Shown here: positions 1,317-18,210 of the stretch, one piece after another | Layout of the letters: the number at the start of each line of letters is the position of its first letter | How positions within the stretch are numbered: the stretch's first letter is position 1 | IMG/VR virus record: IMGVR_UViG_3300050821_007648 | Coordinates: 1 to 25,778 of that record | Strand: one strand, 5' to 3' | Length of the DNA stretch: 25,778 nt | DNA from: a virus | Notes under the pieces: generated by a model | Seen by the model: only the letters and a program-made list of their open reading frames with translations | The model's database searches: none | What the model was told of the DNA's origin: nothing | Program-made: the position numbers and the translations under genes

Positions 1317-1317
1317 A

Positions 1318-2293: not shown

Positions 2294-2314
2294 ATTTCAA
2301 TCTCCAGGAAGTTT

Positions 2315-2611: not shown

Positions 2612-2622
2612 TTTATTTCTCC

Positions 2623-2841
2623 TTAAGAGTGTTTAATTTTCCACGCAAATAAATATTGTTGCGCTTCTTCGTCAGACAATTCTTTAATTACTTCATATCG
2701 CTCATTAACATGTTCTCTTTTCCACCATGGATATGATATTGATCCCTTTTCCCACAATACTTTGATTTCATTTTCTACCTGAGTATTTGGTTGGGTAACT
2801 CCTAAATAATTTCCACCCCATTCTTTTACTAGGTATTCCAT
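2623..2841 (-). CDS. Family A small paralogue, 72 aa
   Basis: Core strands YLGVTQ and EIKVLWEKGSISY, with E-K-G in place of D-G, and the tail LSDEEAQQYLFAWKIKHS, which has a three-residue insertion before AWKIKH. The ATG at 2841 follows the upstream TGA after one base and lacks a good Shine-Dalgarno site, so coupling is likely. Here the tail codons do not contain the next start; the next gene has its own AAGGAG. Function unknown. Confidence 0.8.
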   Translation of the reverse strand: MEYLVKEWGGNYLGVTQPNTQVENEIKVLWEKGSISYPWWKREHVNERYEVIKELSDEEAQQYLFAWKIKHS

Positions 2842-2842
2842 T

Positions 2843-3250
2843 TCATTTCATACCATTTGCTTTCAACAATTTTGCAATTCGGCGGACATATCTTTGTCCC
2901 CAAGCATGAGTCCAATCCCGGCCATGTTTATCCTCTAACATTCTGCGCCAGGTCTGTCCAGTTGTCCTATTCAGTTCCCAACCAGTGCGCTGAGAAATAT
3001 AATCACTCGCAACTAATTCAGCACGTTGTTTGAATGTCCCCGAATGTTTAAATTCTTTATATGATCCAAATTGCACACCTGGATAGCTGTAGCAATTTCC
3101 ATTTTTGATCATCTTGTTTGCATTCGCTGGATTTTGATACCAGCGACCATAATAATCGTAATCAAGACGAATTGATTTTGTAATAGAACGACCACTTTTC
3201 AAGTTACCTGCTTGATCATATTGAAATTCGAATTCAGTTTGCTTACTCAT
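2843..3250 (-). CDS. Hypothetical protein, 135 aa
   Basis: Not recognised. ATG at 3250 has AAGGA 7-8 bases upstream. The protein is basic and rich in Tyr, Arg and Trp. Residues 27-60 contain several aromatic-glycine turns (YYGRWYQNP, YSYPGVQFGS). The C-terminal half is helical and strongly basic (WRRMLEDKHGRDW, then QRYVRRIAKLLKANG), as in nucleic-acid binding proteins; this is only a composition argument. It lacks the family A core and tail although it lies inside that array. Confidence 0.75.
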   Translation of the reverse strand: MSKQTEFEFQYDQAGNLKSGRSITKSIRLDYDYYGRWYQNPANANKMIKNGNCYSYPGVQFGSYKEFKHSGTFKQRAELVASDYISQRTGWELNRTTGQTWRRMLEDKHGRDWTHAWGQRYVRRIAKLLKANGMK

Positions 3251-3262
3251 TTCAATTATCCT

Positions 3263-3526
3263 TTAAGGTTCCATATATTTCAATCTAATGAACAATCGAA
3301 GTTGCTCAGTGTTCTTCCCTAGATTGACCCAATGATTTCCAGTTGCTGTAGTAGGCGGTAAAATTTGAGTATGCAGACCATCATCCCAAACAATTTTAAA
3401 CCATCCATGACCCTGAGGGGCTTTAACTACAACACCAAGATCATCAATCCGATCAGGGCGATCATCATCCACAAAACCAACCAAATCTCCAATTTGGAAA
3501 AATGGCCGCACACTTTTAACTGTCAT
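3263..3526 (-). CDS. Family A small paralogue, 87 aa
   Basis: The start at 3526 is chosen because GGAG lies 6 bases upstream; a longer frame to 3592 would need a TTG without a ribosome site and would overlap the upstream gene. Family features: DLGVVVKAPQGHGWFKIVWD with the following D-G, and the tail NTEQLRLFIRLKY near the C-terminus, where Phe replaces the Trp. An N-terminal extension (about residues 1-33) has one more likely strand pair (FQIGDLVGFVDDD), so this copy may hold a doubled or larger barrel. Function unknown. Confidence 0.78.
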   Translation of the reverse strand: MTVKSVRPFFQIGDLVGFVDDDRPDRIDDLGVVVKAPQGHGWFKIVWDDGLHTQILPPTTATGNHWVNLGKNTEQLRLFIRLKYMEP

Positions 3527-3558
3527 GTCAAACTCCGTAAATCGTCCAGGAAAAATTT

Positions 3559-3903
3559 TTATTCTAAATGTGTTTCCAGTCGTGATATCCAATTATTTCT
3601 GTATTTTAGTTTCAATTCAAAAATTGTGCAAAATACTACAGAATCTTCGTGAAATTCATATGACATTCTAATGTGAGAATTTGAATCATATAATTCAAAT
3701 TTATCGTCCTTAATAACTGCCACACTACGCTGCATAATATTAAAAATTTCTTCTGCTGATTTTGTATTAAATCGTTGGCGCCAACGCATCATAAAATGCG
3801 AACTCAAGATTGGTTTCGAGAATTCAAAATATTCTTGGAGCAAGCGTTCCAAGACAACTCTTTTCCTTTTTTCGTTCTCTTTATTTGTCAAGTTAAACTC
3901 CAT
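3559..3903 (-). CDS. Hypothetical protein, DUF4258/RelE-like features, 114 aa
   Basis: The start at 3903 lies inside the Lys-His-Gly-Val codons that end the upstream paralogue (11-base overlap); the frame upstream of it is the antisense-like continuation through that gene. Residues about 32-42 read LSSHFMMRWRQRF, a His-x3-Arg-x3-Arg type pattern at the head of a helix, followed by a helix (EEIFNIMQRSVAV) and three likely strands ending VVFCTIF. That layout is like DUF4258 and related RelE-superfamily proteins. The match is by pattern only and could be accidental. Not a family A member. Confidence 0.7.
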   Translation of the reverse strand: MEFNLTNKENEKRKRVVLERLLQEYFEFSKPILSSHFMMRWRQRFNTKSAEEIFNIMQRSVAVIKDDKFELYDSNSHIRMSYEFHEDSVVFCTIFELKLKYRNNWISRLETHLE

Positions 3904-4102
3904 GTTTAAGTCGCCAGGCACACACTTCTTGTTCGGTAAGATTTTCTTTAATTTTGGTAAAATCATTTAAATAGTTAAACGATACATTTTCCTGAGTTAC
4001 TCCATCAGTCCAAAAAATATCATAACTATCATTATCAGTAGGTAGAACCAATCCAATTATTGGTCCAAAGAATTTGATAATGAGCGGATTTTCAAACACC
4101 AT
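3893..4102 (-). CDS. Family A small paralogue, 69 aa
   Basis: Closest sister of the next upstream gene: IIGLVLPTDNDSYDIFWTDG is nearly the same as its IGLVLPIDNKYCDIYWDDS, and both end in AWRLKHGV. The ATG at 4102 lies inside the upstream gene's Lys-His-Gly-Val codons (11-base overlap). Its own Lys-His-Gly-Val codons contain the start of the gene at 3903. The pair looks like a recent tandem duplication. Function unknown. Confidence 0.85.
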   Translation of the reverse strand: MVFENPLIIKFFGPIIGLVLPTDNDSYDIFWTDGVTQENVSFNYLNDFTKIKENLTEQEVCAWRLKHGV

Positions 4103-4298
4103 GCTTTAGTCTCCAAGCGAAGACTTCATGTTCAGATAAATCAGACTTAAGTATTTTGAAGTTACTAAGCCAGTTGATCTGGTATTTTTCTTTAACTTCG
4201 CTATCATCCCAATAGATATCGCAATACTTATTATCGATGGGAAGCACAAGGCCTATATACCTGCTACTCCCCAACTCAATAATGAACGGTTTTTTCAT
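4092..4298 (-). CDS. Family A small paralogue, 68 aa
   Basis: First family A gene to be transcribed. The start at 4298 (MKKPFIIELG) is chosen by homology with the sister gene (MVFENPLIIKF); the longer frame to 4394 runs through the end of the HNH gene. It has core strands IGLVLPIDNKYCDIYWDD and tail LSEHEVFAWRLKHGV. The ATG follows the HNH stop after one base with no good Shine-Dalgarno. The tail codons (Trp-Arg) supply GGAGA about 8 bases before the next ATG. Function unknown. Confidence 0.83.
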   Translation of the reverse strand: MKKPFIIELGSSRYIGLVLPIDNKYCDIYWDDSEVKEKYQINWLSNFKILKSDLSEHEVFAWRLKHGV

Positions 4299-4299
4299 C

Positions 4300-4782
4300 T
4301 TATCGACTATAAAAATTAGTATGATACAGTTTTGCTGCATGCTCTCTTGCAATTTTAGCATCTGTAAGATTATCAAATCTACCGACATACACACTTATAT
4401 TGTTATATTGAATTCTTACTTCCCATTTTCCTGAATTGAAAGTCACACCTTTAACACCTGATGTATTATTGCTACCAACCAATCTATTCTGACTATTTTG
4501 AATTTTATTCGCTTGCCTCAGATTCGAGAATCTATTGTCTGATTTATTCAGATTTTGATGATCTATAAGTTTTACAGGAATCATGCCTGTCATATAAAAC
4601 CAAGCTAATCTATGGGCTTTATATTGCTTGCCATCAAGTCTGATTACTGTATAACCCTTACTGTCCTTTGTTCCTGCAATTTTACCAATTGTATTTCTAT
4701 GATGGTGTCTAATTTTCCATCTGAATAATCCAGACATTGGATCATAATCCAATGTCTGTTTAATTCTAAAATACGTTATCAT
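4300..4782 (-). CDS. HNH endonuclease with AP2 DNA-binding domain
   Basis: Probable free-standing homing endonuclease, 160 aa. HRLAWFYMTG (about 57-66) followed by IDHQNLNKSDNRFSNLR (about 73-89) is the HNH nuclease core of the phage HNH_3 type. The C-terminal half (about 108-150, GVKGV...WEVRI...YVGRFDNLTDAKIARE) is an AP2-type DNA-binding domain. The start at 4782 shares one base with the AAA+ gene's stop (TGATG); a longer TTG frame to 4818 would overlap that gene. These genes usually spread between phages as selfish elements, so its place between the ATPase and the family A array is probably an insertion. Confidence 0.88.
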   Translation of the reverse strand: MITYFRIKQTLDYDPMSGLFRWKIRHHHRNTIGKIAGTKDSKGYTVIRLDGKQYKAHRLAWFYMTGMIPVKLIDHQNLNKSDNRFSNLRQANKIQNSQNRLVGSNNTSGVKGVTFNSGKWEVRIQYNNISVYVGRFDNLTDAKIAREHAAKLYHTNFYSR

Positions 4783-5931: not shown

Positions 5932-6267
5932 TTACGTTTTACCTACAAACTTTAGTAAGTAATGTAATCTATCCTCTTCTTTAGCGAAATGAATTGTTTT
6001 TTCTGTAAGATTTTTAGCTCCTTTAAAAGCAATTAAACAAAAATCTTTATCTTTTAACCATTCAATTAATTCGCTGGAAAGTTGTTCTTTAACAAAACAT
6101 TCTCCCCATTTATTTTCTAATATTGTGCGGCCATTATCTGTGGTAAATGTTAATTTACCTTCAAAATCATAAAACATTTCTTTTGAAATAGTAATTCTAT
6201 CATCAAATCCACATTGCGCCCAATTGGGCTTCTTTAATACTAATTCAGCTTCATAATTATATTTCAT
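5932..6267 (-). CDS. Hypothetical protein at the end of the NAD module, 111 aa
   Basis: Not recognised. The ATG at 6267 overlaps the DUF3841 stop as ATGA, so it is coupled to that gene and belongs to the same transcript as NadV. The first half is likely beta-rich (YEAELVLKKPNW, then ITISKEMFYDFEGKLTFTT); the second half holds two likely helices (SSELIEWLKDKDF and KEEDRLHYLLKFV). A single Cys pair (residues 19 and 57) is too far apart to suggest a zinc site. Its place suggests a role tied to its neighbours, but nothing in the sequence proves this. Confidence 0.78.
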   Translation of the reverse strand: MKYNYEAELVLKKPNWAQCGFDDRITISKEMFYDFEGKLTFTTDNGRTILENKWGECFVKEQLSSELIEWLKDKDFCLIAFKGAKNLTEKTIHFAKEEDRLHYLLKFVGKT

Positions 6268-6899
6268 AATACTTTAGTTGTTTTACCTGTTTTATTAAAT
6301 TTAACTGCCTCTTTTAAATATCCAGGTTTAATTTCCCAAAATGTAGCTTGAATAATTTGTTGGTCTTCTTCGAATTCTAAATATTTTCTTGATAATTCCA
6401 TATCAAATACGTTATGCCAAGATTCTTCTAATTCATTTCTAAGCCATTCAGGATAATATTCGTAATTATAACAACCTTTTAAATCTCGTTTAATATCCCA
6501 TAATTCGTCAGCACGCTTTTCATCACCTAAATACCAAGAATTTAATACGAAATGCCAAGCATCATAATCAGAAAGTAATACCTGATTATCCGGAATTTCC
6601 AATGTCATTAATGCACAAGTGCGATTCTCTGCGAAACATCGGGTACCAGTATAACGAAGGTCAGGCTTCATTTTTTTAGGACCATACCACTGATAAAAAG
6701 CCCACGTAGGATATGTCTCTAACGTAGGCCTAATACCAATTTTCTTATCCATTTGATCTGATATCCAATGGTATGAATGAAGGAATCGCTCATCAACCAT
6801 ATCCATATCTTTGTCTGGATAGGGGCATTTTGCACGATACGTTTCACCCCGTTCCAGTAATTCGAATACACTATAATCTTGTGTTGAATAAAGAATCAT
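6264..6899 (-). CDS. DUF3841 family protein, 211 aa
   Basis: Matches the DUF3841 pattern: an N-terminal ILYSTQDYSVFELLERGETY, then FLHSYHWISDQMDKKIG, then YPTWAFYQWYG..KKPDLR-like segment (here KKMKPDLR), then LEIPDNQVLLSDYDAWHFVL. The full length fits the family. Function is not established. The opening strand, helix and conserved Tyr/Trp/Arg positions remind me of ADP-ribosyltransferase-like folds, but I cannot support that beyond resemblance. It overlaps NadV by ATGA and the following gene by ATGA, so it is expressed together with NAD synthesis, which makes an NAD-linked role worth testing. Confidence 0.85.
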   Translation of the reverse strand: MILYSTQDYSVFELLERGETYRAKCPYPDKDMDMVDERFLHSYHWISDQMDKKIGIRPTLETYPTWAFYQWYGPKKMKPDLRYTGTRCFAENRTCALMTLEIPDNQVLLSDYDAWHFVLNSWYLGDEKRADELWDIKRDLKGCYNYEYYPEWLRNELEESWHNVFDMELSRKYLEFEEDQQIIQATFWEIKPGYLKEAVKFNKTGKTTKVL

Positions 6900-8320
6900 T
6901 TAAAATCAGACAATGCTCTTTCAGTGAGTTGAGCCAACGTATCGTTAGCAAAAATATGACCATGATCGTAAATCGTAGTCATGACAGTTCCAGCATCAGC
7001 AGCAGGATCGATAATATTGACAGTCTTGAATTCGTCACCATCCTTCTTAAGAGTAATAATACCCTTCTTGCTTTGCTTTCCTGGATCAGTGACAGGATCC
7101 TTAAAGATTTCTCTCCAAGTAAATGTGCCGTCATCATTCTTAATCTTGATTGCACTTGCTTTTTGTGCAAACTTGAATGTATCACGATTCACTTTTTGAA
7201 GCAATGCTCCTCCGCTACCGAATACAACATTTTCGATGCTAAATCCATTCAACTTAACAGCATGAATGATAAGTTCCATCGTGCGATAATCAACGCCATC
7301 ACCTTGAATAACTGCAACATTATTGACTACTTTAAATCCCTTACTATTCACAGTGAAACCGAAATGTTCAGATTGTAGCGCAAGAATCTTAAGCACATTG
7401 ACAATTGGATCGCCACTGTCAGGACGGAAAACAACCTTTGCTCCGCTGTCGATGATTTTTTGACGGAATGTAGTGCAAAGTTGCGTTGCTTCACGCAGCA
7501 TGTCATAGCCGTCGATAACAATAGAAACAATTGCTCCTGGCTTTGCAAAAGTATCAAGCATCATTGCAAGATATTCTGTTTGATTTTCTTCTGTAGGACC
7601 ATAGCTTGTTTGCACACTATGCTCCGAAGCCACAACACTGTAAGCAGACATTGGTGTGTTGTAGTAAAAGTTTGCAGCACGAACTCCTTCAACAGTATCA
7701 CTACCTCTGAAATGAATCAAATGTGCAAAACCACCAACTTCAGCAGATTCGTGGGAAGATACCCCTCTTCCACCGAAATCATGATACATGAAATTGATTG
7801 CATCTGGATTGTCAGACGTTTCATCCAATGCATCTTTAAGCATTTTATAGACTTTGTGGTCATTAGATGCGATTGTCGTTGGATACCAAACAGCACGTTG
7901 CAACATCGTTTCAATGATAGAAACAATTGGCCACACACCTTCATCTTCAGAATGCACTGAAACGAGAATGTTTCCACTCTTGACTGGCGTGCCTTCAGGC
8001 ACTGCTTTGATAATGAGCGGCAAGAAACCATCATGCACAGTCACAACTTTTTCCCACATTGCACGATCAAATGGTTCTCCATGCCCTTGTGCGAATGCTT
8101 CAGCTTCATTGATATCTTCAAGAGTAACACGCATAGAAAGATATTTTTGAACAAACATTTGCATACCAGCAGGGATGATAACATCGCCTTTGCTGCGTGC
8201 TTCAATGTATCCAAACATTCCGCATGTTTGCTTCGGATACATTTGTCCATGCCCCAGCTTATAGCTATCGAGCATAAGAATTAGATTTGTTTCTAGTGAT
8301 TTGATTGTGTTAATAGACAT
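6896..8320 (-). CDS. nadV: Nicotinamide phosphoribosyltransferase (NadV/NAMPT)
   Basis: Makes nicotinamide mononucleotide from nicotinamide and PRPP. The 474-aa length fits the NAMPT family. The catalytic His is His234 (ASEHSVQTSYG) and the phosphate/ribose loop is Arg299-Pro-Asp301 (FRPDSGDP). HDFGGRGVSS (180-189) and FRGSD (204-208) match the nicotinamide- and substrate-binding segments of the family. AAAGGAG precedes the ATG at 8320 and lies in the loop of a small AT-rich hairpin. The next upstream gene encodes NMN adenylyltransferase, so the two complete a two-step nicotinamide-to-NAD+ route. Known phage examples (such as the KVP40-type nadV/natV pair) carry the same pairing. Confidence 0.97.
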   Translation of the reverse strand: MSINTIKSLETNLILMLDSYKLGHGQMYPKQTCGMFGYIEARSKGDVIIPAGMQMFVQKYLSMRVTLEDINEAEAFAQGHGEPFDRAMWEKVVTVHDGFLPLIIKAVPEGTPVKSGNILVSVHSEDEGVWPIVSIIETMLQRAVWYPTTIASNDHKVYKMLKDALDETSDNPDAINFMYHDFGGRGVSSHESAEVGGFAHLIHFRGSDTVEGVRAANFYYNTPMSAYSVVASEHSVQTSYGPTEENQTEYLAMMLDTFAKPGAIVSIVIDGYDMLREATQLCTTFRQKIIDSGAKVVFRPDSGDPIVNVLKILALQSEHFGFTVNSKGFKVVNNVAVIQGDGVDYRTMELIIHAVKLNGFSIENVVFGSGGALLQKVNRDTFKFAQKASAIKIKNDDGTFTWREIFKDPVTDPGKQSKKGIITLKKDGDEFKTVNIIDPAADAGTVMTTIYDHGHIFANDTLAQLTERALSDFK

Positions 8321-8340
8321 TTTAAAACTCCTTTAAAATA
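8318..8340 (-). promoter_or_regulatory. RBS hairpin over the nadV start
   Basis: In the minus-strand RNA, AUUUUAAA pairs with UUUAAAAU (8 A-U pairs, plus one possible U-G) around the loop GGAGU. The loop is the Shine-Dalgarno sequence of nadV, and the 3' arm ends in its AUG. The stem is weak because it is all A-U, but the layout matches the stronger hairpin at 9811-9835. Confidence 0.5.
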
Positions 8341-8364
8341 GTTTGTTTGCTAAGAATCTTTTTC

Positions 8365-9411
8365 TTAGACTTTATTTTTGAAGAACATAAATTGATCCCA
8401 ATGGTCTTCATACATGTTATCGCTCACCACTTCACTTAATGGCACCCACTTTGCAGCCATTGCATCATCTGCTGCTTTAACATGAGCAAGTTCTTTATCA
8501 TCTTTCAGCTTGATAAGATAACTATGAGTGATAGTTCTTCCACGCATGCTACGAGTTGGTGAATCGAATACGTGTGAATCAATAATACTACCTTCAAGCA
8601 CTGCTGCAGGAACTTTAATTTTCGTTTCTTCTTTCAATTCACGAAGCATTGATTCGATCAATGTATCTTTTAGACCTAAGAATCCACCTGCTGCTGCCCA
8701 AAGTCCATGACCAGGTTCTTTCTTTCGTTGAATCAAAAGAACATGACCACTTTGCACAACCCAAGCATCAGTTGTAACAAAGATCGGATCATACGGTGCT
8801 GCTGCCCAAGCTAGTTTATATTTTTGAATAAACTCATATTCTCGAACGAGTTGTTCAAAATTTGAATTATGCTTAAATTCTGTCAAGAATTTCAATGTTT
8901 GTTCTGGAACAGCGCCAGCAATATAGCTCAATGATTTACCTTCAAACAGCAATTGGCGAATTTGGGTTGAGTCAAGAGTATCGCCCAATGGCATACTTAT
9001 CAAATCCCATTGGGGAAACATTTTCAAATAATACGAAGATGAATCTTTATCGCATCCGACCAAACAAATTTCACCTTTCTTTGCTGGACGTGGATAAATG
9101 CGTTCAGAAAATGTATCATTCACAGTCTTTTGTACGTCAGCGACCCAAGCTGAATCACTATACATATAGTCATTGACTCCGCTTGACGAAACACGATGAC
9201 CAACTGCATTGTCCCAGGCCCATGATCCTAGAATACTTTGACGTTCTGAGACAGCGAGCGGATTCTTAATTGTGCGTGGACGATGATCTCCGCCAAATAA
9301 TACGACTACTTGGTCAGCAAGTTCAAGACCTTTTTTAATCAAATTGATATGTTGGTTGTGCATTGGTTCAAAACGACCAATAACAGCAGCTAATTTATAT
9401 TTCTTAGACAT
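8365..9411 (-). CDS. nadM: Bifunctional NMN adenylyltransferase / Nudix hydrolase
   Basis: The N-terminal domain (about 1-180) is a NadM-type nucleotidyltransferase: GRFEPMHNQH (12-21) is the HxxH-containing ATP loop and LDSTQIR (146-152) matches the ISSTxxR motif. The C-terminal domain (about 205-348) is a Nudix hydrolase, expected to act on ADP-ribose; its box at 243-265 keeps R-E-x-x-E-E but has Asp for the first Glu and Lys for the last Gly. The start at 9411 is chosen over ATG 9417 and longer frames because it aligns with the domain start. It overlaps the upstream gene by 8 bases. With NadV it rebuilds NAD+ from nicotinamide. Confidence 0.95.
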   Translation of the reverse strand: MSKKYKLAAVIGRFEPMHNQHINLIKKGLELADQVVVLFGGDHRPRTIKNPLAVSERQSILGSWAWDNAVGHRVSSSGVNDYMYSDSAWVADVQKTVNDTFSERIYPRPAKKGEICLVGCDKDSSSYYLKMFPQWDLISMPLGDTLDSTQIRQLLFEGKSLSYIAGAVPEQTLKFLTEFKHNSNFEQLVREYEFIQKYKLAWAAAPYDPIFVTTDAWVVQSGHVLLIQRKKEPGHGLWAAAGGFLGLKDTLIESMLRELKEETKIKVPAAVLEGSIIDSHVFDSPTRSMRGRTITHSYLIKLKDDKELAHVKAADDAMAAKWVPLSEVVSDNMYEDHWDQFMFFKNKV

Positions 9412-9814
9412 ATGCATCACCACCGAAATTGTTAAGTTCCACGTCAATAGCATCGAGTTGTTTTTGAAGTGCAAATTTTTGCACTTCAAGTTCTTTCCTG
9501 CGTCGCGCTGATTGACTATCTACTTTTTTGATATTATCAATCTTTTTGATATTTCCGCCCGAACCCCAAGTCCAAAAACCTTGAATGGTTACAGCATACT
9601 CGATTACATCGCTAAGCTTACCTTCGACAATTCCTAGATCAGGTTGGTGATGTGATCCACCCATATCACAGTTTGGGTCTTCACCCTTAATTTGCCAAAG
9701 CCCTTCTTCATCAAGAGAATATTTCTTGATTAGTTCCCTACCAGAATAAGTATTCAGGAAATTACTATATTGCAGTTCTGCTGCAGGCACACGTTTATTT
9801 GAATTTTGAGACAT
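9404..9814 (-). CDS. Conserved phage hypothetical protein ahead of nadM, 136 aa
   Basis: The central segment MGGSHHQPDLGIVEGKLSDV (about 51-70), followed by a GFWTWGSGG motif, resembles a small conserved protein family I associate with large myoviruses; its function is not known. The His pair and Asp could bind a metal, but nothing more shows this. The C-terminal 40 residues are a charged coiled-coil helix (SARRRKELEVQKFALQKQL). The ATG at 9814 has AAAGGAG 7 bases upstream, enclosed in a hairpin. Its last 8 bases contain the nadM start, so it leads the NAD module and its translation should control nadM. Confidence 0.85.
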   Translation of the reverse strand: MSQNSNKRVPAAELQYSNFLNTYSGRELIKKYSLDEEGLWQIKGEDPNCDMGGSHHQPDLGIVEGKLSDVIEYAVTIQGFWTWGSGGNIKKIDNIKKVDSQSARRRKELEVQKFALQKQLDAIDVELNNFGGDAYV

Positions 9815-10605: not shown

Positions 10606-10910
10606 TTTTCTCTCAATGTTTTAATAATTAAATTCTTTGCATCAGTAGTTTGTCTCCAATGCAAATACAAAATATATGTAGGAATGGTAATAGGGAAGAA
10701 GATAAGCATCGGAGCAAAAAATAGCAATGTTACTAAAATGAGTATCCAGAATCCTGACCAAAAACCCCAAGCAAATTCTGTAGCTATTTCCCGTCTATAT
10801 TCTTCAAACGCAAATCCGAGTGAGAATACTAAAAGAATAGTATAGACAATATCTTCTTGCCAAGTCCAGACTTCCCCTTTTTTATGTTGTTTCAAGACTC
10901 TAATACTCAT
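10602..10910 (-). CDS. Membrane protein, family C, 102 aa
   Basis: The start at 10910 has GGGGGA four bases upstream; a TTG four codons earlier is less likely. Membrane segments at about 21-35 and 48-82 (WGFWSGFWILILVTLLFF, then PITIPTYILYL). The tail (DAKNLIIKTLREK) is the family C tail. Its last codons (Leu-Arg-Glu-Lys) give GAGAGAAAA before the next ATG. It slightly overlaps the upstream Cys-rich gene at its start. Function unknown. Confidence 0.82.
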   Translation of the reverse strand: MSIRVLKQHKKGEVWTWQEDIVYTILLVFSLGFAFEEYRREIATEFAWGFWSGFWILILVTLLFFAPMLIFFPITIPTYILYLHWRQTTDAKNLIIKTLREK

Positions 10911-11329
10911 ACTTTCCCCCAATGCGTTAGACCTTTAAACTGATTCTTCAATTCACATTGCGTCGGTTGTTTGAACTTAATTGTAAAGTTTTTTCCGAAT
11001 TTTCTTTTCATTTTAAATGTGCGATTGCCACATTTGTTTTTACAGTTCGAACAACGAGTTTTCATGATGTATTGCCAAGTTGGTTCTTTATGCTCCTTAT
11101 CATAGTCATAAAAAATGACATAGCTTCCAACAGGGTGCTTAGCCAATTCATCTTCAGCATTGTCGATTGACATAAATTGTTTTACATTATCACCTTCTAA
11201 TGCATCCCACCAATGTATTTCAGTTGAATGAGTTGGAACGACTCTGTAAATTTTATCACTTTTATAATAAAACACCTTCTTCTTAGCAAGTTTCTTAATC
11301 TGCCTATTGTTCCTATTTTTTAGAGCCAT
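10907..11329 (-). CDS. Hypothetical basic protein with a Cys cluster, 140 aa
   Basis: Not recognised. Start at 11329 (ATG, GGTGA 6 bases upstream) is preferred over a TTG at 11335. The N-terminus is a very basic helix (KNRNNRQIKKLAKKK). A Cys cluster near residues 92-100 (RCSNCKNKCG), with one further Cys about 26 residues later (TQCELKNQ), could hold a zinc ion. The stretch between them is basic and beta-like. Nucleic-acid binding would fit this composition but is an inference. It ends family B and leads into the family C genes. Confidence 0.78.
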   Translation of the reverse strand: MALKNRNNRQIKKLAKKKVFYYKSDKIYRVVPTHSTEIHWWDALEGDNVKQFMSIDNAEDELAKHPVGSYVIFYDYDKEHKEPTWQYIMKTRCSNCKNKCGNRTFKMKRKFGKNFTIKFKQPTQCELKNQFKGLTHWGKV

Positions 11330-11558
11330 TTTCAATCACCCATTTATATAGTTTGTTAGCGACTTCATCTTTAGTGCGGCCCATTCGAACAACTTTCTTG
11401 CCGTCGTTATCTAATACAGTTATTCTATAACCATGACCATCCGAAGTGTCAGTATGAACAAGATATCCTAAATGCCTGGTAGCCGAATCATTCATTCCCA
11501 ACATAACTATGTCAAGCTCTTTAAGAATCAGCGCCAATTTTATTTTCTCGAATTCCAT
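11313..11558 (-). CDS. Family B small paralogue (type a), 81 aa
   Basis: Last of the tandem family B genes. N-terminal helix MEFEKIKLALILKELDI, strands GYLVHTD and YRITVLDN, then the signature G-x-T-x-x-E/A helix (MGRTKDEVANKLYKWVIEN). The predicted order is helix-strands-helix. ATG at 11558 lies inside the Gln-Trp-Asn codons of the upstream gene (19-base overlap), with AGGTG about 8 bases upstream. Possible folds are HicB-like or dsRBD-like; neither is shown. Function unknown. Confidence 0.83.
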   Translation of the reverse strand: MEFEKIKLALILKELDIVMLGMNDSATRHLGYLVHTDTSDGHGYRITVLDNDGKKVVRMGRTKDEVANKLYKWVIENGSKK

Positions 11559-11764
11559 TGCTCCATCACCTTGTTGGCTGCTTCTTCTAATGTGTCACCG
11601 TAAGAAAAATATCTGAATCGGGTACCATCAGTTAATTCAGCTGGGGTTCCGATTCCATGATCGTATCTAATTCTAGCACAAGGACCGTTATATGATACAA
11701 ACACGTCTAATTTATAATTAGGTTTAGTTAATGCTAAGATGAAGTTGAATTTCTCGATATCCAT
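11540..11764 (-). CDS. Family B small paralogue (type a), 74 aa
   Basis: N-terminal helix MDIEKFNFILALTK, strands CARIRYDHG and FRYFSYG, then GDTLEEAANKVMEQW. The G-D-T-x-E-E-A helix start is the element most like HicB antitoxins. ATG at 11764 lies inside the upstream Trp-Ile-Ser-Arg codons: the same bases read W-I-S-R-N in one gene and M-D-I-E-K-F in this one (31-base overlap). No good Shine-Dalgarno site is visible, so coupling is likely. Function unknown. Confidence 0.84.
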   Translation of the reverse strand: MDIEKFNFILALTKPNYKLDVFVSYNGPCARIRYDHGIGTPAELTDGTRFRYFSYGDTLEEAANKVMEQWNSRK

Positions 11765-11982
11765 TGTTGATATACCTTATATGATGCTTCTTCTTTAGTG
11801 TTACCATAATCAAAATACTTGTATCTAGATCCGTTGTCAGTCAATAAGAAATCTGGAATTTCCATCCCGATGTAATATCCGATTGGTTCGATTCTAGCAT
11901 AATAATCCTCAACTATAGATACATCAGAATGAATCTGAAGACCATGCAGGGATAATGCTAACTTAATTTTTAAGATATCCAT
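11734..11982 (-). CDS. Family B small paralogue (type a), 82 aa
   Basis: MDILKIKLALSLHGLQI helix, strands YYARIEPIGYY and YKYFDYG, then GNTKEEASYKVYQQWISRN. ATG at 11982 lies inside the upstream gene's Lys-Tyr-Gly-Tyr codons: TATGGATAT reads Y-G-Y in one frame and M-D-I in the other (20-base overlap). Its own Trp codon is the start of the next gene. Function unknown. Confidence 0.84.
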   Translation of the reverse strand: MDILKIKLALSLHGLQIHSDVSIVEDYYARIEPIGYYIGMEIPDFLLTDNGSRYKYFDYGNTKEEASYKVYQQWISRNSTSS

Positions 11983-12202
11983 ATTTTTTCATTGGTTTGT
12001 AAAACCTGAGGAAATTATCTACAGCATTTTTGATTGATTCTTCTTTTGATTGAAATGGAATCGCTCTAAATTCAGGATCCATATTCCATGTCTTATCCAT
12101 ATCTACCACCAATGAATAATAGTGTCCTGTAACACCAGCGCGGATAGTTTTAATTTCGAAACCCATCAAGTTAAGCTTTAAGATTTCTTTGTCGTAGTCC
12201 AT
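11963..12202 (-). CDS. Family B small paralogue (type b), 79 aa
   Basis: The start at 12202 (MDYDKEILKLN) is chosen by alignment with sisters; an ATG three codons upstream (12211) is possible. Type b genes share the M-D-x-x-K-E-(L/I) helix and a K-G-Y/M-G-F motif but end in a Lys/Tyr tail (MKKYGY) instead of the G-x-T-x-E-A...W helix. Strands HYYSLVVDMD follow the first helix. The start overlaps the upstream gene's Lys-Trp-Thr codons. Function unknown. Confidence 0.82.
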   Translation of the reverse strand: MDYDKEILKLNLMGFEIKTIRAGVTGHYYSLVVDMDKTWNMDPEFRAIPFQSKEESIKNAVDNFLRFYKPMKKYGYLKN

Positions 12203-12450
12203 TTTAACCATACATTATTAATTGCTTCTTGCTCAGTTCGTCCCCAGGAAAAATAACTCCAATACCCTTCTTCGTTTAGGATTCCCAGGCGTCTATCTCT
12301 ATTGAAATTTTTTTCATCACCGTAATTCTCGTGATCGGTTGATACAATTCGAGCATAATATTGTTTGTCAGTGATACTAAAATCATAAGCTTGATGATCC
12401 AATTTCAAACCTTTAAGGATCAATTCTAATTTAAATTTCTCAATATCCAT
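12178..12450 (-). CDS. Family B small paralogue (type a), 90 aa
   Basis: Longest array member. MDIEKFKLELILKGLKL helix, strands YYARIVSTD and GYWSYFSWG, with a charged insertion (about 43-56, acidic then Arg-rich), then GRTEQEAINNVWLKW. ATG at 12450 lies inside the upstream Lys-Tyr-Gly-Tyr codons (11-base overlap), where TATGGATATTGA serves as tail, stop and start. Function unknown. Confidence 0.84.
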   Translation of the reverse strand: MDIEKFKLELILKGLKLDHQAYDFSITDKQYYARIVSTDHENYGDEKNFNRDRRLGILNEEGYWSYFSWGRTEQEAINNVWLKWTTTKKS

Positions 12451-12667
12451 ATTTTTTCATTTTTCTGATAGAGGATTTTATGGAATCACTTTTATCTAAG
12501 CATTCTGAATATGTTTTATCAAACAATCCACCTTTAAGGTAATCTCCTGAATTTGGCGGCGTACTAGCAAACCAAGTAGTTGCGCCATCAACTCCACTAT
12601 ATGATTTGGTAGATTCTAATACATACCCTTTCAGTTTGTATCTAAGGAGTTCTTTTTCAATGTCCAT
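12440..12667 (-). CDS. Family B small paralogue (type b), 75 aa
   Basis: MDIEKELLRYKLKGYVL helix, strand ATTWFASTPP, then a helix ending in IRKMKKYGY. ATG at 12667 lies inside the upstream Lys-Trp-Thr codons (37-base overlap, the longest in the array). The shared ending KKYGY with the gene at 11963 is kept in sequence and in its role as the start site of the following gene. Function unknown. Confidence 0.83.
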   Translation of the reverse strand: MDIEKELLRYKLKGYVLESTKSYSGVDGATTWFASTPPNSGDYLKGGLFDKTYSECLDKSDSIKSSIRKMKKYGY

Positions 12668-12882
12668 TTTTTATATACTTCTTCAAATGCCAATTCTTTT
12701 GTAGGTGAAAAGCTATACAATTCTCCTACTACAGTTCTATTGTAGAATTCTGCGTTATCACTTTGATCGTAGGAATACATTATGCCGCAATATGCTTGTG
12801 TTTCATCAAGCGTACTTTGTTCTTCTATCAAAACATGTCCTGATAAAGCTAAAACTAACTTAAACTTTTCCTTATCAATCAT
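12631..12882 (-). CDS. Family B small paralogue (type a), 83 aa
   Basis: MIDKEKFKLVLALSGHVL helix, strands AYCGIMYSYD and GELYSFS, then PTKELAFEEVYKKWTLK. The G of the G-x-T element is replaced by S-P, so this copy is more diverged. ATG at 12882 has GAGG 6 bases upstream, in a 6-bp hairpin. It overlaps the unrelated upstream gene by 8 bases. The Lys-Trp-Thr codons are the next start. Function unknown. Confidence 0.82.
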   Translation of the reverse strand: MIDKEKFKLVLALSGHVLIEEQSTLDETQAYCGIMYSYDQSDNAEFYNRTVVGELYSFSPTKELAFEEVYKKWTLKKNSLDTN

Positions 12883-13180
12883 TGATTACCTCAATGAACC
12901 CTTGTGAAATTGCTTTATCAATTGCAATTTGACAATACGCATGCAAATACTTAGAATTTTTTGTGTCTTTTATAAAGCGATACACAGGCCAATCACCTAC
13001 ACCCTTTCCTACTGAAGTAATCACATAAATTCCTGCCTTAATCATGACAGTTTTGGAATCTGGTGCAGTCGTTTCGTCATTGAAAAGAAAACAAATCTTT
13101 TGTCCTTCTTTCAAAACGGGAACAGGGAATCGTTTTTGATCCCCCATTGCAGCATAAACTTCAGTACCGTTGAATTTCAA
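12875..13180 (-). CDS. Hypothetical protein with TTG start inside the family B array, 101 aa
   Basis: The TTG at 13180 is preferred over the ATG eleven codons later because GGAG lies 7 bases before it and no site precedes the ATG. It overlaps the upstream gene by 20 bases. Not a family B member: there is no M-D-x-E-K helix. The sequence is beta-rich (VPVLKEGQKICFLF, VMIKAGIYVITSVGKG, VYRFIKD) with a C-terminal helix (LHAYCQIAIDKAISQGFIEV), so a small barrel is likely. Function unknown. Confidence 0.75.
   Translation of the reverse strand: MKFNGTEVYAAMGDQKRFPVPVLKEGQKICFLFNDETTAPDSKTVMIKAGIYVITSVGKGVGDWPVYRFIKDTKNSKYLHAYCQIAIDKAISQGFIEVIND
12879..12897 (-). promoter_or_regulatory. Small RBS hairpin at the start of the gene ending at 12631
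   Basis: In the minus-strand RNA, UCAUUG pairs with CAAUGA (6 pairs) around the loop AGGUAAU. The loop holds most of the Shine-Dalgarno GAGG and the 3' arm holds the AUG. This is the weakest of the four hairpins of this kind in the window. Confidence 0.4.
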
Positions 13181-13385
13181 GATAATTCTCCAATTTTCTT
13201 ATTGATTCTTCAATATGTTCTGGATTGCCACCATTAACTACAGTTGCGTCCCATAATGCCCAATCATCATTAGAATTTGGCGAATATTTTTCACTCTCAA
13301 ACCATATAGCAATTCGTGATTTTCCTGCGCGGATCATTGAATAACCGCGCAATTCATACTCTATCAATTTCTTTTCAATGTCCAC
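13161..13385 (-). CDS. Family B small paralogue (type b) with GTG start, 74 aa
   Basis: The GTG at 13385 overlaps the last codons of the upstream gene (Arg-Gly-His) by 11 bases and gives the expected family start (MDIEKKLIEYELRGY). Strand SRIAIWFESEK follows, then an acidic loop with Trp (DDWALWDATV), then a helix ending NYLEIQRY, a diverged form of the KKYGY tail. Its codons supply GGAG for the TTG start of the next gene. Function unknown. Confidence 0.8.
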   Translation of the reverse strand: MDIEKKLIEYELRGYSMIRAGKSRIAIWFESEKYSPNSNDDWALWDATVVNGGNPEHIEESIRKLENYLEIQRY

Positions 13386-13599
13386 GATTTTTCCACAATG
13401 TGAATGATTCTTCGTAAGCTTTCATTAGATTCGTATTGATTGCATAGTATTTTGTATCACCTTCTCTTGAATCTATTGGAACGATAATTACACTATACGA
13501 ATCTGAATCGTAATCATCAAAAGCAAACTTCCAAGTTGTAAGCAAAAACTGCAACCCATGCAAAGCAAGCTCAACTTTCGCTTTTTCAAGATCAATCAT
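13375..13599 (-). CDS. Family B small paralogue (type a), 74 aa
   Basis: First family B gene to be transcribed. MIDLEKAKVELALHGLQFLL helix, strands SYSVIIVPID and KYYAIN, and a shortened last helix (AYEESFTLWKNRGH) without a clear G-x-T. ATG at 13599 overlaps the upstream stop as ATGA, with AAGG 6 bases upstream. Function unknown. Confidence 0.82.
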   Translation of the reverse strand: MIDLEKAKVELALHGLQFLLTTWKFAFDDYDSDSYSVIIVPIDSREGDTKYYAINTNLMKAYEESFTLWKNRGH

Positions 13600-14063
13600 G
13601 CATGGCCTTCAAGTTTGTTTTTACGAATGTGCTTCAGCCATTCTTCTTTTTGTGTTTGTAGGCGATCACCTTCTGCTTCCATACGATGCATTTCAATTTC
13701 ATCGGGGCACGTTTGAACTTCAGAAACAGGTTCGGCAGGCTTAGCTGCTTGTGTGGCTTTCTTTGCTTCAGCAGCTTCAGCAAGTTGGCGCCAATAAATA
13801 GCAAGACGCATATCGCCATTCTTGTCTTTTACACGCCAATATGCAATTTGCTTAGGAGAAAGGAAGCCCCTCTTTTGATAAAATTCTGCCATACTGCAAC
13901 CCATCCTCGAATGGCATGGACGAAAACCTTCGCCATTACGATTAATAGTTGTTTGTGACATTTGTTCAATTTTTGTCTGGTTATTGTAGAGAACAATTAA
14001 TGCCCTTGCTATTGCTTTGTCATTTGTTTCTAGAAGCTTCACAATTTCATTTTTTGTCAGCAT
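13596..14063 (-). CDS. Conserved phage hypothetical protein (RMGCSM...QIAYWR type), 155 aa
   Basis: Residues about 38-95 (NRNGEGFRPCHSRMG, then FYQKRGFLSPKQIAYWR, then GDMRLAIYWRQL) match a protein family common in many phages and prophages, of unknown function. The first 35 residues are helical (EIVKLLETNDKAIARAL). After residue 95 comes an Ala/Lys-rich linker and a charged helix (MEAEGDRLQTQKEEWLKHI). ATG at 14063 has GGAG about 6 bases upstream. It is the first gene behind the promoter at 14093-14120 and overlaps the first family B gene. Confidence 0.88.
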   Translation of the reverse strand: MLTKNEIVKLLETNDKAIARALIVLYNNQTKIEQMSQTTINRNGEGFRPCHSRMGCSMAEFYQKRGFLSPKQIAYWRVKDKNGDMRLAIYWRQLAEAAEAKKATQAAKPAEPVSEVQTCPDEIEMHRMEAEGDRLQTQKEEWLKHIRKNKLEGHA

Positions 14064-14146: not shown

Positions 14147-14953
14147 TTAAATTTGTTTCTTACAATTGATTAACAATTCTTCTAAAGTTACATCACTTCT
14201 GCAACCTTTACTAATATTTGATTTGCAATCAATTAATCTTAAATTAGTCCAATTTGCAATGATTTCAGGATTTATTTTATTTTTAAACCCATCATATGCT
14301 GAATAGATATGATCTAAATGAAATTCTTTGCTCCTTTTAATATTATTGGGATTAATTTCCCAATAATATTTTTCAAAGTTTTTATTTGTTAATTTATTAA
14401 CTATGTTTCTATAAACTTCCCAATCCGTTTTAAGATCATCAGGTATTAAAAGTCCCTTTTCTCGGCGTTTTAATATACCCCTTTCATAGCCTGACAATCC
14501 ATTTTCATCAAGTTTCAAATTGCTTGCTTTTGATTTTCTTCCTGAGATTAAATGACCACTTTTTCCTTTATTTCCGGCCATTTTTTCTGCCCTTCTTTGC
14601 AAACCATTTTTACCTAAATTATCAATATTATTTCGCATGGTTTGCATTGCTTTTTCAGCTTGCTTTTGTAGAGCATTTTTTCCGTCTTCAAAAATAATTT
14701 GTTTTTGTTCTTCAATATGCTTTAATTTATTGTCCCTAAACCAGTCCTTCCCTAGTGTTTCCGCAGATTTTTTGTTTGCGAGTTGATAGTTAGATTTTCC
14801 AGATTCTGGATCAATTGTATTTCTTGTCTTGGTCATGTTAGACGCAACTGCAGGGCACTGCATTGCATTTCTTTCAAAACAAACTGGTTGTTTTGATTTT
14901 TTAGTTAATCTTACGGCTATTTTCCCGCAGCCGTGAATACAGAATTCAGTCAT
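14147..14953 (-). CDS. Free-standing HNH endonuclease, 268 aa
   Basis: Probable homing endonuclease of the phage HNH type: FHLDHIYSAYDGFKNKI (about 211-227) and NLRLIDCKSNISKG form the HNH core, with Asp-His as catalytic pair and Asn later on. The N-terminus holds a Cys/His cluster (CIHGCG, then VCFERNAMQC) that may bind zinc. The middle (about 75-130) is a long charged helix rich in Lys/Gln/Asn. AAAGGAAT precedes the ATG at 14953. It stands alone between a terminator and a promoter, as expected for an inserted selfish gene. Confidence 0.88.
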   Translation of the reverse strand: MTEFCIHGCGKIAVRLTKKSKQPVCFERNAMQCPAVASNMTKTRNTIDPESGKSNYQLANKKSAETLGKDWFRDNKLKHIEEQKQIIFEDGKNALQKQAEKAMQTMRNNIDNLGKNGLQRRAEKMAGNKGKSGHLISGRKSKASNLKLDENGLSGYERGILKRREKGLLIPDDLKTDWEVYRNIVNKLTNKNFEKYYWEINPNNIKRSKEFHLDHIYSAYDGFKNKINPEIIANWTNLRLIDCKSNISKGCRSDVTLEELLINCKKQI

Positions 14954-15038: not shown

Positions 15039-16256
15039 TTACACAGATTCTTTCAATGTAATTTTTCCTAAATCAGTATTTGCTACAATCTTTAATCCAG
15101 TAACAAATGTGCATTTTTTAACTTCTAGCGGCTCTTTTCTAGAAAGATTACATTCAACTGTATTATATTGAGTTGGTGTAAATGGATTATAAACGATTTC
15201 AGTATATCCATCGTTAATTAAATCTTCATGAATTCTACTAATATAAGTTTCAACAATTTGCATTGTTTCATTATGAACAATATATTGAGTTGAATTTCTT
15301 GCATTACTATCATTTAAATCAAGTTGTTTTTCAGTTAAATCCATTACATATTGAAAATCTTGAATACTAATATTCGATTTAAAAATACCATGAACTGATT
15401 TCGAATAGTCATTTGACGGCATACGAATATAAATCGATTGACCATTCTTGTAATAATCTTCGATTTTTTCTTCTGTCTTTCCGATAATGACACATGGTTT
15501 TAGTTTTTTAGCGAGTTGAAAACTAGTACTTTTGCTAGATTTAAACGCGTGATATTTTTCAGTCTTACTCAATGCATGTTCATATTTGGTCGGATTACGT
15601 GTTCCACCGAAACCAGAATAAAAGGTATTACCTCGTGTAGGATTTAAATCTTTTCGTTGAGAAATGATTGCAACATATTCTCCAAGATAGATATCTTCTG
15701 ATCCATCTTTAAACTTAACGATATCGCCAACAGTCAAATCACTAAATTTTGAAGTATTCTTTTCTGCAAACTTAACAGATTTTGCATATGCTTCTGAAGA
15801 AACTGCCACCAATACGTTATTATTTCCTTGGCGACCCCAAACACATGGTTCAGCGATATAGCCACCTTTAAGGATATCACTCGTTTGTAGAATGACTTCA
15901 AGATTACCAGTTGAGATTTCGAGAACATAACCTCTAGGGTCAATCAATCTAAAGAATTTGTTGTCAGTGGAATAGCGACTCGTTGCATTCATGATTCGAA
16001 AACCAGTCGTAGGACTATTTTCTAGTTCATGCAAATTATTCGTATCCTGAGTGCTTTCTTCATATTGTTTAGTTGTATAATTGTATGTCCTACCGACATT
16101 ACACCAACTCTTTAAAGTTACCAGGCGTTTCTGATAAGCTGAATCACTTGTGTTTGGGGTCATGAAAGACAATTGAGGATCTTCGATGCTCAAATCTTTA
16201 TATCCTCTGACACCAACAGTAAGTGATTTTGCAAACGTAATAATTTTATCTGACAT
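15039..16256 (-). CDS. Large hypothetical phage protein, 405 aa
   Basis: Function unknown. Segments such as ITFAKSLTVGVRGYKDLS, SRYSTDNKFFRLIDPRGYVL and EPCVWGRQGN resemble a family of hypothetical proteins I associate with jumbo myoviruses. Around residues 172-192, SDLTVGDIVKFKDGSEDIYL looks like an SH3/KOW strand pair, similar in plan to the family A core. There are no membrane segments. GGAG lies 5 bases before the ATG at 16256, which shares one base with the upstream stop (TAATG). It is the last gene of its unit. Confidence 0.85.
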   Translation of the reverse strand: MSDKIITFAKSLTVGVRGYKDLSIEDPQLSFMTPNTSDSAYQKRLVTLKSWCNVGRTYNYTTKQYEESTQDTNNLHELENSPTTGFRIMNATSRYSTDNKFFRLIDPRGYVLEISTGNLEVILQTSDILKGGYIAEPCVWGRQGNNNVLVAVSSEAYAKSVKFAEKNTSKFSDLTVGDIVKFKDGSEDIYLGEYVAIISQRKDLNPTRGNTFYSGFGGTRNPTKYEHALSKTEKYHAFKSSKSTSFQLAKKLKPCVIIGKTEEKIEDYYKNGQSIYIRMPSNDYSKSVHGIFKSNISIQDFQYVMDLTEKQLDLNDSNARNSTQYIVHNETMQIVETYISRIHEDLINDGYTEIVYNPFTPTQYNTVECNLSRKEPLEVKKCTFVTGLKIVANTDLGKITLKESV

Positions 16257-16537
16257 TATTTCTCCAATGTGTGTTTATTAACTTCATACCAATAATCGAG
16301 TAGATTGTTTATTGCTTGTGTTCTAGTTTTTCCGAAGCAAAGTGGATACTGTTCTGAAAAATCGTAACTATGATAGTGTTTCCCTTCACTGTTTTCTAAC
16401 CAAGCGTATTGCACATCAATGAATGGCTCATTACCTATAGCCCCGTGTTGATATTCAGGATTAAGTTGATATGTTGCTCTACACCGAATTCTCCAACCAT
16501 GTAAAGCAACTAGCATTTTAATTTTCTTACGATCCAT
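16256..16537 (-). CDS. Family B outlier, 93 aa
   Basis: Shares the family B plan away from the array: MDRKKIKMLVALHGWRI helix, strands FIDVQYAWLEN and KHYHSYDF, then FGKTRTQAINNLLDYWYEV, matching the G-x-T-x-x-A...W helix of type a. It has a longer insertion between the strands. The ATG at 16537 follows the DadA stop directly. The tail codons Leu-Glu-Lys supply GGAG for the next gene. Function unknown. Confidence 0.82.
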   Translation of the reverse strand: MDRKKIKMLVALHGWRIRCRATYQLNPEYQHGAIGNEPFIDVQYAWLENSEGKHYHSYDFSEQYPLCFGKTRTQAINNLLDYWYEVNKHTLEK

Positions 16538-16538
16538 A

Positions 16539-17879
16539 TCAACCTTTATTGATCTTAGGAGAATATTCCTGAGGATTTAAGAATGGCGCTGCAATAGATT
16601 TAGATTCTTTACCAGTCATGATATTTGCAATCATTTGACCACTACCACAACTCATAGTCCAACCCAATGTCCCGTGACCTGTATTGACATACAGACCTCT
16701 AATATTTGTCTCTCCAACCAGAGGAATTCCGTTCGGAGTCATGGGACGCAAACCAGACCAAAATCCCTTATCTTTAAGTTCAAATAGTTTATTTGTTTCA
16801 GTATTAGTTGCACCAGGGAACAATTCTTCTACTAAATCTAGTAACTGAATCATCCTGACCCAACCATCATGTTGAGTTTTTGTTGTATATCCAGCAAGTT
16901 CTGCAAATCCACCTGCGCGAATGCGATTGTCGAATCTAGTAATAGCAACTTTATTTGTTTCATCTAACACCGTTGAAACTGGCGCTTCAGCAATATTTTT
17001 AATATCGAGCGTAAGAGAATGACCACGAACAGGATATACTGGAATATTGATATTAAAATCTTTTAGCAATTCTTTACTATAAACACCTGATGCGACAATA
17101 ACATGATCTGCTTCTACATAATGTGAAGCATAACCATCATTATAATCAACATCTACTCCTTGCAATACCTGCACTGTTCCTAATCGTTTAATCCATGGCT
17201 TAGCTTTTCTGTTATAGTGAAACTGCACTCCATTTTCTTTGCAGATTGCTTCTAGATTCTTACAAAACAAATTGCAATCTCCTGTTTCATCACCAGGAAT
17301 CCATAAACCACCGATTAAATCCGCATTTGATCCTTTGAGTCCTGGCTCAAGCCTAATCAATGCATCACGATCATTGACAAGCATGTAATTGATATTATTA
17401 CGGTCTAGAACAGAAATATCTTTGGTTGCATTCTGCATTTGCTCTTTATTTCTAAACAATTGCAAAGTCCCATGCTTACGTCCTTCATACTGAATATTCG
17501 TATCGTATCGCAATTGATTCAAGCATTCTTGACTATACAGTGACATTTGAATCATTGAATACTTATTCCAATCATATGAATTAGATGTGCAATTGGATAG
17601 AAATTTTGCCATCCAAGTAATTTGTTCCATTGACCAATCAACCTTAAATTTGAATGGCGCTTTAGCATCAAACATCCACTTAAGTGCTTTCATTGGAATA
17701 CCTGATCCAGCCCATGGAGCCGAATAACCAACAGAAATTTGTCCTGCGTTTGCAAAACTTGTGCCTTGAGCTGGACCACAGTGATCATCATAAACTTCTA
17801 CATCATATCCAGCTCTGTTTAGATAATATGCGGTCGTAATTCCGATAACTCCCGCACCAAGAACAATAACTTTAGACAT
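16539..17879 (-). CDS. dadA: D-amino acid dehydrogenase, small subunit type (DadA)
   Basis: FAD-dependent oxidase-fold enzyme that deaminates D-amino acids (classically D-Ala) to keto acids and passes electrons to the respiratory chain at the inner membrane. 446 aa, close to the bacterial length (about 430). G8-x-G10-x-x-G13 is the FAD loop; NAGQIS (44-49), IKWMF-like ALKWMF (65-70), NIQYEGR, TRFDNRIR, GLRPMTPNGIP and NTGHGTLGWTMSCGSG match E. coli DadA closely. The start at 17879 gives the normal N-terminus; it overlaps the upstream gene by 8 bases. No truncation or frameshift. Base use is AT-rich like its neighbours, so any transfer from a host is not recent. Confidence 0.96.
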   Translation of the reverse strand: MSKVIVLGAGVIGITTAYYLNRAGYDVEVYDDHCGPAQGTSFANAGQISVGYSAPWAGSGIPMKALKWMFDAKAPFKFKVDWSMEQITWMAKFLSNCTSNSYDWNKYSMIQMSLYSQECLNQLRYDTNIQYEGRKHGTLQLFRNKEQMQNATKDISVLDRNNINYMLVNDRDALIRLEPGLKGSNADLIGGLWIPGDETGDCNLFCKNLEAICKENGVQFHYNRKAKPWIKRLGTVQVLQGVDVDYNDGYASHYVEADHVIVASGVYSKELLKDFNINIPVYPVRGHSLTLDIKNIAEAPVSTVLDETNKVAITRFDNRIRAGGFAELAGYTTKTQHDGWVRMIQLLDLVEELFPGATNTETNKLFELKDKGFWSGLRPMTPNGIPLVGETNIRGLYVNTGHGTLGWTMSCGSGQMIANIMTGKESKSIAAPFLNPQEYSPKINKG

Positions 17880-18210
17880 TTGATTTCCCATATTTCCTAT
17901 AATATTTTTCAATTACGTTATATTTTGCTGCTAGTTTTGTTTTTCCTAGACCATAACTCGTCACCATATGTCCTGCACCATTTTCTACGTATGCGATCCA
18001 ATTCGATTTTTTATGCTTCATATAATCTGGATCATGAGTAAATGTGATTACTGTCATACCTTTAAATGTCAAAAACAATTCATGCTTTCTAACATATTCA
18101 TCAAGTATTGCTAATTCAGCTTGTCGTAATTCTTCACGTTGTCTCATTTCTTTACAAATAAAAAGTGGCATATACTTCAGCCACTTTTCCTTAAGCCAAT
18201 CAGTCAGCAT
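17872..18210 (-). CDS. Hypothetical protein with family B-like C-terminus, 112 aa
   Basis: The start is uncertain: ATG at 18213 or 18210 overlaps the RNA ligase stop; a TTG at 18243 is less likely. The first 40 residues are a charged helix (CKEMRQREELRQAELAIL). From residue 40 on it resembles family B type a: a helix (AILDEYVRKHELFL), strands MTVITFTHD and NWIAYVENG, then LGKTKLAAKYNVIEKYYRK, matching the G-x-T-x-x-A helix. The Trp near the end is replaced by Tyr-Tyr. The last 8 bases contain the DadA start. Function unknown. Confidence 0.75.
   Translation of the reverse strand: MLTDWLKEKWLKYMPLFICKEMRQREELRQAELAILDEYVRKHELFLTFKGMTVITFTHDPDYMKHKKSNWIAYVENGAGHMVTSYGLGKTKLAAKYNVIEKYYRKYGKSNV

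Follow-up and report, generated by a model that had tools for sequence, protein, structure and literature searches.

The window analysed here is a fragment of a virus record (25,778 nt, positions 1 to 25,778 of IMG/VR record IMGVR_UViG_3300050821_007648) whose minus strand carries, at 11313–13599, a tandem array of nine homologous small open reading frames (ORFs; 74–90 aa) of two types, a and b, together with one unrelated gene. The within-family junctions of this array are dual-coding: the block ATGGAYATYGARAAR gives the Met-Asp-Ile-Glu-Lys start of one gene, while a different frame of the same letters closes the gene before it, read as Trp-x-Ser/Leu-Lys/Arg in type a and as Lys-Tyr-Gly-Tyr-stop in type b. 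These start-in-stop joins are the new point of this work and were missed in a preliminary description of the same DNA. They were found, with both frames printed for each junction, in the window and in its one close relative, IMG/VR contig IMGVR_UViG_3300050821_005939 (30,240 bases; hereafter L004), which holds a version of the array. The explanation that we favour, and to which we give an even chance, is a translationally coupled array of accessory, probably host-interaction proteins that has grown and been exchanged at these joins.

Where a type-a gene precedes another family member, the next ATG lies over the conserved Trp codon (g4a/g5b, g6a/g7b, g8a/g9a and g9a/g10a in the window; g4a/g6a in L004). 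The pattern is xxA TGG AYA TYG ARA AAn, whose upstream frame encodes Trp, two variable residues and a basic residue, and whose downstream frame reads ATG GAY ATY GAR AAR (M-D-I-E-K) or a near variant. The g4a/g5b join (12651–12668, minus strand, as are the other joins) reads aATGGACATTGAAAAAGA, giving W-T-L-K-K in g4a and M-D-I-E-K in g5b; g6a/g7b (12178–12203) reads ATGGACTACGACAAA, giving W-T-T-T-K-K-S and M-D-Y-D-K. At g8a/g9a (11734–11765), W-I-S-R-N-S-T-S-S and M-D-I-E-K-F-N-F-I-L share a 31-nt overlap whose sequence is identical in L004, and g9a/g10a (11540–11559) combines W-N-S-R-K-stop with M-E-F-E-K-I. Joins that follow a type-b gene use the other register, AAA TAT GGA TAT TGA, in which the upstream gene ends in K-Y-G-Y-stop and the ATG spans the Tyr-Gly codons (TAT GGA); the block ATGGAYATTGA can then also supply the stop. 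The g5b/g6a join (12440–12450) is such an 11-nt start-and-stop block, ATGGATATTGA (Y-G-Y-stop and M-D-I-E), and g7b/g8a (11963–11983) reads tATGGATATCTTAAAAATTAA (Y-G-Y-L-K-N-stop and M-D-I-L-K). This second register is also used at g1a/g2b, with a GTG start and R-G-H-stop upstream. The seemingly conserved KKYGY and W-x-S-R ends are, for the most part, what the start codons of the following genes spell in another frame. Since the Trp is found without a coinciding D-x-E-K start, and the reverse (g1a, g10a and g11a), both appear to be features of the proteins themselves, which share DNA at the other joins.

From the junction with the gene before the array through that with the gene after it, successive overlaps measure 4, 11, 20, 8, 37, 11, 25, 20, 31, 19 and 17 nt. 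Overlaps of at least 11 nt are found at nine of the 11 array junctions, compared with about 16 of 134 co-directional neighbours by our own count over annotated stretches of two related jumbo phages, CBB and Phosso. Like joins are present in an unrelated array of the window (family A, 748–4394), where three have K-H-G-[VI]-stop over ATGG and one has W-I-S-R over TTGGATATC.

The array genes share a strand and overlap stop with start, as translationally coupled genes do. In known genes of that kind, a terminating ribosome restarts at a nearby start, with a variable role for the Shine-Dalgarno (SD) sequence (PMC6728339, PMC10666635). The mean predicted anti-SD pairing of the upstream bases in the window was −2.1 kcal/mol at nested starts (7 genes) versus −5.3 at the others (27 genes; p 0.001), and in L004 −2.2 at nested starts versus −6.2 elsewhere (p 0.006). 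For genes outside the array, we chose the starts ourselves among the listed ORFs, and some few may be misplaced. Weak SD sites at nested starts fit translational coupling, although they are no proof of it. The array genes resemble described coupled overlapping genes (PMC6728339, PMC10666635) in being co-directional and overlapping. However, known coupled overlaps are mostly of 1, 4 or 8 nt, whereas those observed here are mostly of 11–37 nt and recur along a single paralogue array that has one dual-coding block in common. In prokaryotes generally, gene distances outside the range −8 to +6 nt are rarer than the 4-nt overlap by a factor of at least 10 (PMC10666635).

The position of the nine paralogues and their transcription order given in the preliminary description (a, b, unrelated, a, b, a, b, a, a, a) were confirmed with the ORF list, all-against-all BLASTP and shuffle Z-scores. 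By the latter two, the a genes are mutually linked with Z up to 11.4, and the b genes with Z of 10.6 (g2b–g5b) and 6.4 (g5b–g7b). The link between a and b is confined to the N-terminal 21 residues (profile comparison, hhalign probability 75%). The array opens with g1a (13375–13599, 74 aa), which has a MIDLEK start, an AAGG SD site, an ATGA overlap with the preceding gene and an orthologue at L004:6911–7135. It is followed by g2b (13161–13385, 74 aa), whose GTG start is nested in the end of g1a and whose orthologue is L004:7125–7325 (tree support 97/95), and by the unrelated g3x (12875–13180, 101 aa; TTG start assumed). Next come g4a (12631–12882, 83 aa), g5b (12440–12667, 75 aa; its KKYGY end lies inside the g6a start), g6a (12178–12450, 90 aa) and g7b (11963–12202, 79 aa), the start of which is probably at 12202 (MDYDKE) rather than at 12211. 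The last three are g8a (11734–11982, 82 aa), g9a (11540–11764, 74 aa) and g10a (11313–11558, 81 aa), the end of which overlaps an unrelated 140-aa gene (10907–11329) by 17 nt. Beyond the array, also on the minus strand, there are a dispersed tenth type-a copy, g11a (16256–16537, 93 aa; orthologue L004:4060–4341), and a more distant member, g12 (17872–18210, 112 aa), whose C-terminal half is like type a (GKTKLAAKYNVIEKYY) and whose end forms a type-b-like join. Counterparts of every a gene, including g11a, and of two of the three b genes were detected in L004, which has an additional remote family copy at 5978–6223. The array genes look real, because the ratio of nonsynonymous to synonymous substitution rates (dN/dS) against L004 orthologues is low, at 0.08–0.18 for the type-a genes (0.10 in g1a) and g7b, indicating purifying selection.

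The two phages differ at the joins by whole genes. Present in the window only are g3x, between g2b and g4a, and g5b, between g4a and g6a. The tail of g4a is WTLKKNSLDTN in the window, where the g5b start encodes it, and WTLRNSN in L004, where the g6a start encodes it; it is thus re-encoded by the new neighbour. A third difference is a flavin adenine dinucleotide (FAD)-dependent oxidoreductase gene (DAO family, E 2e-66; 16539–17891, minus strand), which is inserted between g12 and g11a and is absent from that place in L004. An in-frame ATGGG of this gene falls within the Tyr-Gly codons at the end of g12, the point at which g11a begins in L004, and both edges of the insert carry TATGG. This oxidoreductase is an unusual cargo for a phage. 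In tailed phages, mosaic boundaries fall at gene edges, and the array resembles them in its exchange at gene borders; unlike them, its border is a coding block common to paralogues, which re-encodes the upstream tail. The gene before the array (13596–14063, against L004:6456–6914) is itself a mosaic, with a 93% identical middle between segments of 68% and 58%.

In the explanation that we favour, the small accessory proteins of one family with two clades are encoded in tandem by a jumbo tailed phage, most start codons being nested in the last codons of the preceding gene. In type a, the conserved Trp codon TGG, with an A before it, supplies the ATG of the next gene; in type b, the ATG lies across Tyr-Gly (TAT GGA), and the same block can give the stop (ATGGAYATTGA). 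Paralogy suggests that the array grew by unit duplication, and comparison of the two phages shows that whole genes are gained, lost or inserted at the shared joins. Judging from the long overlaps and weak SD sites, translation would probably proceed by termination-reinitiation from one mRNA. The small alpha/beta products would most likely bind host or defence proteins during takeover, each with its own target. We infer this accessory role on host or defence targets from the small size of the proteins, their dense order on one strand, the diversification of paralogues under constraint in most orthologues, the absence of the family from other jumbo phages searched and the possible NAD-restoring neighbours (NAD, nicotinamide adenine dinucleotide). 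Bacillus phage SPO1 has host-takeover modules of small early genes. The array is like such modules in being made of densely packed small one-strand genes without assigned function; the genes of SPO1-type modules are mostly unrelated to one another, whereas here they are of one family with two clades and nested starts.

Phage genomes are rich in small genes of unassigned function, and little is understood of the way in which sets of them expand. In this array the point of growth may be readable in the DNA, as a short block that is at once gene start, stop or tail, and site of gain, loss and insertion. This gives a testable rule for accessory phage gene arrays and shows that a protein end can look "conserved" on account of the gene that follows it. 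A stronger version, which we consider possible but on balance unlikely, is that the block has evolved as a docking joint: with a start, a stop and a tolerated tail all available in its frames, any gene starting with ATGG could be inserted, duplicated or exchanged there and leave its neighbours intact. If so, the phage could maintain, under a single translation initiation, an expanding and recombinable set of host-takeover proteins, and the like joins at unrelated genes (the FAD oxidoreductase and family A) would make this a general rule of the phage group.

Several observations weigh against the favoured explanation. Two-state segmentation of identity between the window and L004 placed five of ten shifts near gene starts (g1a, 0 to 14 nt; g2b, 21; g7b, 12; g10a, 23; following gene, 4), but others fall inside g8a and both flanking genes, and the test of mean distance to starts did not reach significance (1430 of 20000 random placements, 7%, lay as close). 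Our own expectation that breakpoints lie only at joins was borne out only in part. The change at joins comes from a single comparison, with L004 as the sole relative. Constraint is weaker at the g2b/g5b position against the L004 type-b counterpart (dN/dS 0.40–0.58) and in g12 (0.41). The AlphaFold2 model of type b (g5b, five sequences) is similar to that of type a but weaker, with a predicted local distance difference test score (pLDDT) of 63 and the third strand unresolved. Finally, the searches yielded no homologue of known function, and the host-target role is argued from size, context and analogy. The non-significant breakpoint test also agrees with a neutral origin of the overlaps in tandem duplication, in which they would serve neither expression nor exchange; so does the presence of long overlaps at about 12% of gene pairs in the related phages (our count). 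However, duplication of this kind accounts poorly for the weaker SD sites at nested starts in both phages, or for similar joins at unrelated genes (the FAD oxidoreductase, the 140-aa gene and several family-A genes), and we regard it as rather unlikely.

The proposal that a and b are distinct types holds. In a maximum-likelihood tree, the five b sequences lie on one side of a branch (support 95/95; 92% of bootstrap trees), forming one clade apart from a, with no mixed clade. Among chance orders of three b in nine genes, 42% have no adjacent b and 24% have every b directly after an a, so the alternation is not significant, and L004, whose genes run a b a a b a a a, does not keep it. Within type a the tree is an unresolved star, every window gene grouping with its L004 orthologue. 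The L004 b gene is the partner of g2b, which leaves g5b as an extra copy; the nearest a neighbours (g8a–g9a and g6a–g8a) do not mirror the b tree. The idea that an a-b pair had been duplicated was dropped after these tree, gene-order and chance-order tests, being unsupported because alternation is expected often enough by chance and the L004 order differs. The same results bear on obligate a-b heteromers with a stoichiometry set by overlapping pairs. Three a-b neighbours occur in the window, and subunits of heteromeric complexes are over-represented among overlapping gene pairs, but that enrichment concerns short distances of −8 to +10 nt (PMC10666635). With an alternation compatible with chance, trees that are not mirrored, and an L004 array that has two b and more a genes, g4a there being without a following b, such heteromers are improbable.

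For type a, AlphaFold2 (g6a, 14 sequences) predicted a helix-strand-strand-strand-helix fold with a pLDDT of 78 and a predicted template modelling (pTM) score of 0.68. The best VIA-align matches of both models were mostly double-stranded RNA-binding domains (dsRBDs; Z about 5–6.3, root-mean-square deviation 2.1–3 over 56–68 residues), although Z values under 8 may reflect merely a common arrangement. Viral structural matches included RNase III, other double-stranded RNA (dsRNA)-binding proteins and small phage proteins, none of them significant; CBB protein A0A1L2CV97 was also among the structural matches. The dsRBD lead of the preliminary description thus stands only for the predicted order and packing, which resemble those of PF00035 domains such as those of RNase III, TRBP and Loquacious, but not for sequence. 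With E values of up to 10 allowed, PF00035 matched neither phage, while positive controls were detected, and hhalign scores against six dsRBDs were like those of shuffled profiles. In the family alignment, the Lys-Lys-x-Ala-Lys (KKxAK) element at the start of helix 2 is replaced by mostly acidic or neutral residues, in most cases T-x-E/Q/D-E-A, and the GPxH loop is absent, so that residues for contact with dsRNA are lacking; g1a, g2b, g4a and g8a are acidic (isoelectric point 4.7–5.2). At best, then, the modelled fold of both types is dsRBD-like. Binding of dsRNA is unlikely, and we consider it distinctly improbable that these are true dsRBDs that coat phage RNA duplexes and hide them from host RNase III or RNA-sensing defence. 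T7 Gp1.2, a phage inhibitor of Escherichia coli dGTPase, is likewise a small phage protein and was the first Foldseek PDB match for type a, but the match was not significant (E 0.085); against type b it gave a Z of 5.2, with weak TM-scores of 0.43–0.45. T7 Gp1.2 is not known as a tandem family.

A toxin-antitoxin or HicAB-like reservoir is scarcely credible: small neighbours of two types would suit it, but the likeness to HicB suggested earlier found no support, as neither PF15919 (HicB) nor PF07927 (HicA) matched either phage at E up to 10 while both worked in control genomes, and no two-gene unit is conserved between the window and L004. One paper has reportedly applied the term dsRBD-like to the HicA toxin.

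Because its RecA-like protein is 69–71% identical to those of Sinorhizobium phage Phosso, Xanthomonas phage XbC2, Pectobacterium phage CBB and Cronobacter phage GAP32, the window is assigned, from sequence, to a jumbo tailed phage of this broad group. No DNA-level match to the window was present in the phage collection. L004 was the only relative retrieved when viral contigs were scanned with the family, when the neighbouring 405-aa protein was used for a scan, and when 84,980 species genomes of bacteria and archaea were scanned, and tblastn of single members against 50,697 phages gave chance matches or none. A profile search that covered seven jumbo phages and another 14 IMG/VR contigs detected no relative, apart from a weak match of the type-a alignment to CBB (KU574722.1, 85194–85352; E 0.08); the seven a genes, aligned together, were too variable to serve for scanning. 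No credible match to the family came from HMMER scans against Pfam, PHROGs and PADLOC, weak matches to Lar, TRAPP and REase_II (E 0.01–0.2) being discarded, and a PDB sequence search gave no match. Literature searches of open-access papers found no description of such arrays.

The surrounding genes described here are also on the minus strand. Family A (748–4394) is a second array of small paralogues, with a W-x-DG core and an ...A-W-K-L-K-H/Y end, in which several joins nest the next start; the one member tested had no Pfam match. In the region 6896–9489, a nicotinamide phosphoribosyltransferase (6896–8320) adjoins a nucleotidyltransferase-Nudix protein (8365–9405). The two are likely an NAD salvage pair, possibly serving as counter-defence against NAD-depleting systems. 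A 268-aa gene (14147–14953) without a Pfam match looks by eye like an HNH-type endonuclease; it was not seen at the corresponding place in L004, which has other small genes. The 405-aa protein (15039–16256) belongs to no Pfam family; it is conserved, with 97% identity in L004 and weak matches (27–35% identity) in Pseudomonas, Vibrio and other phages.

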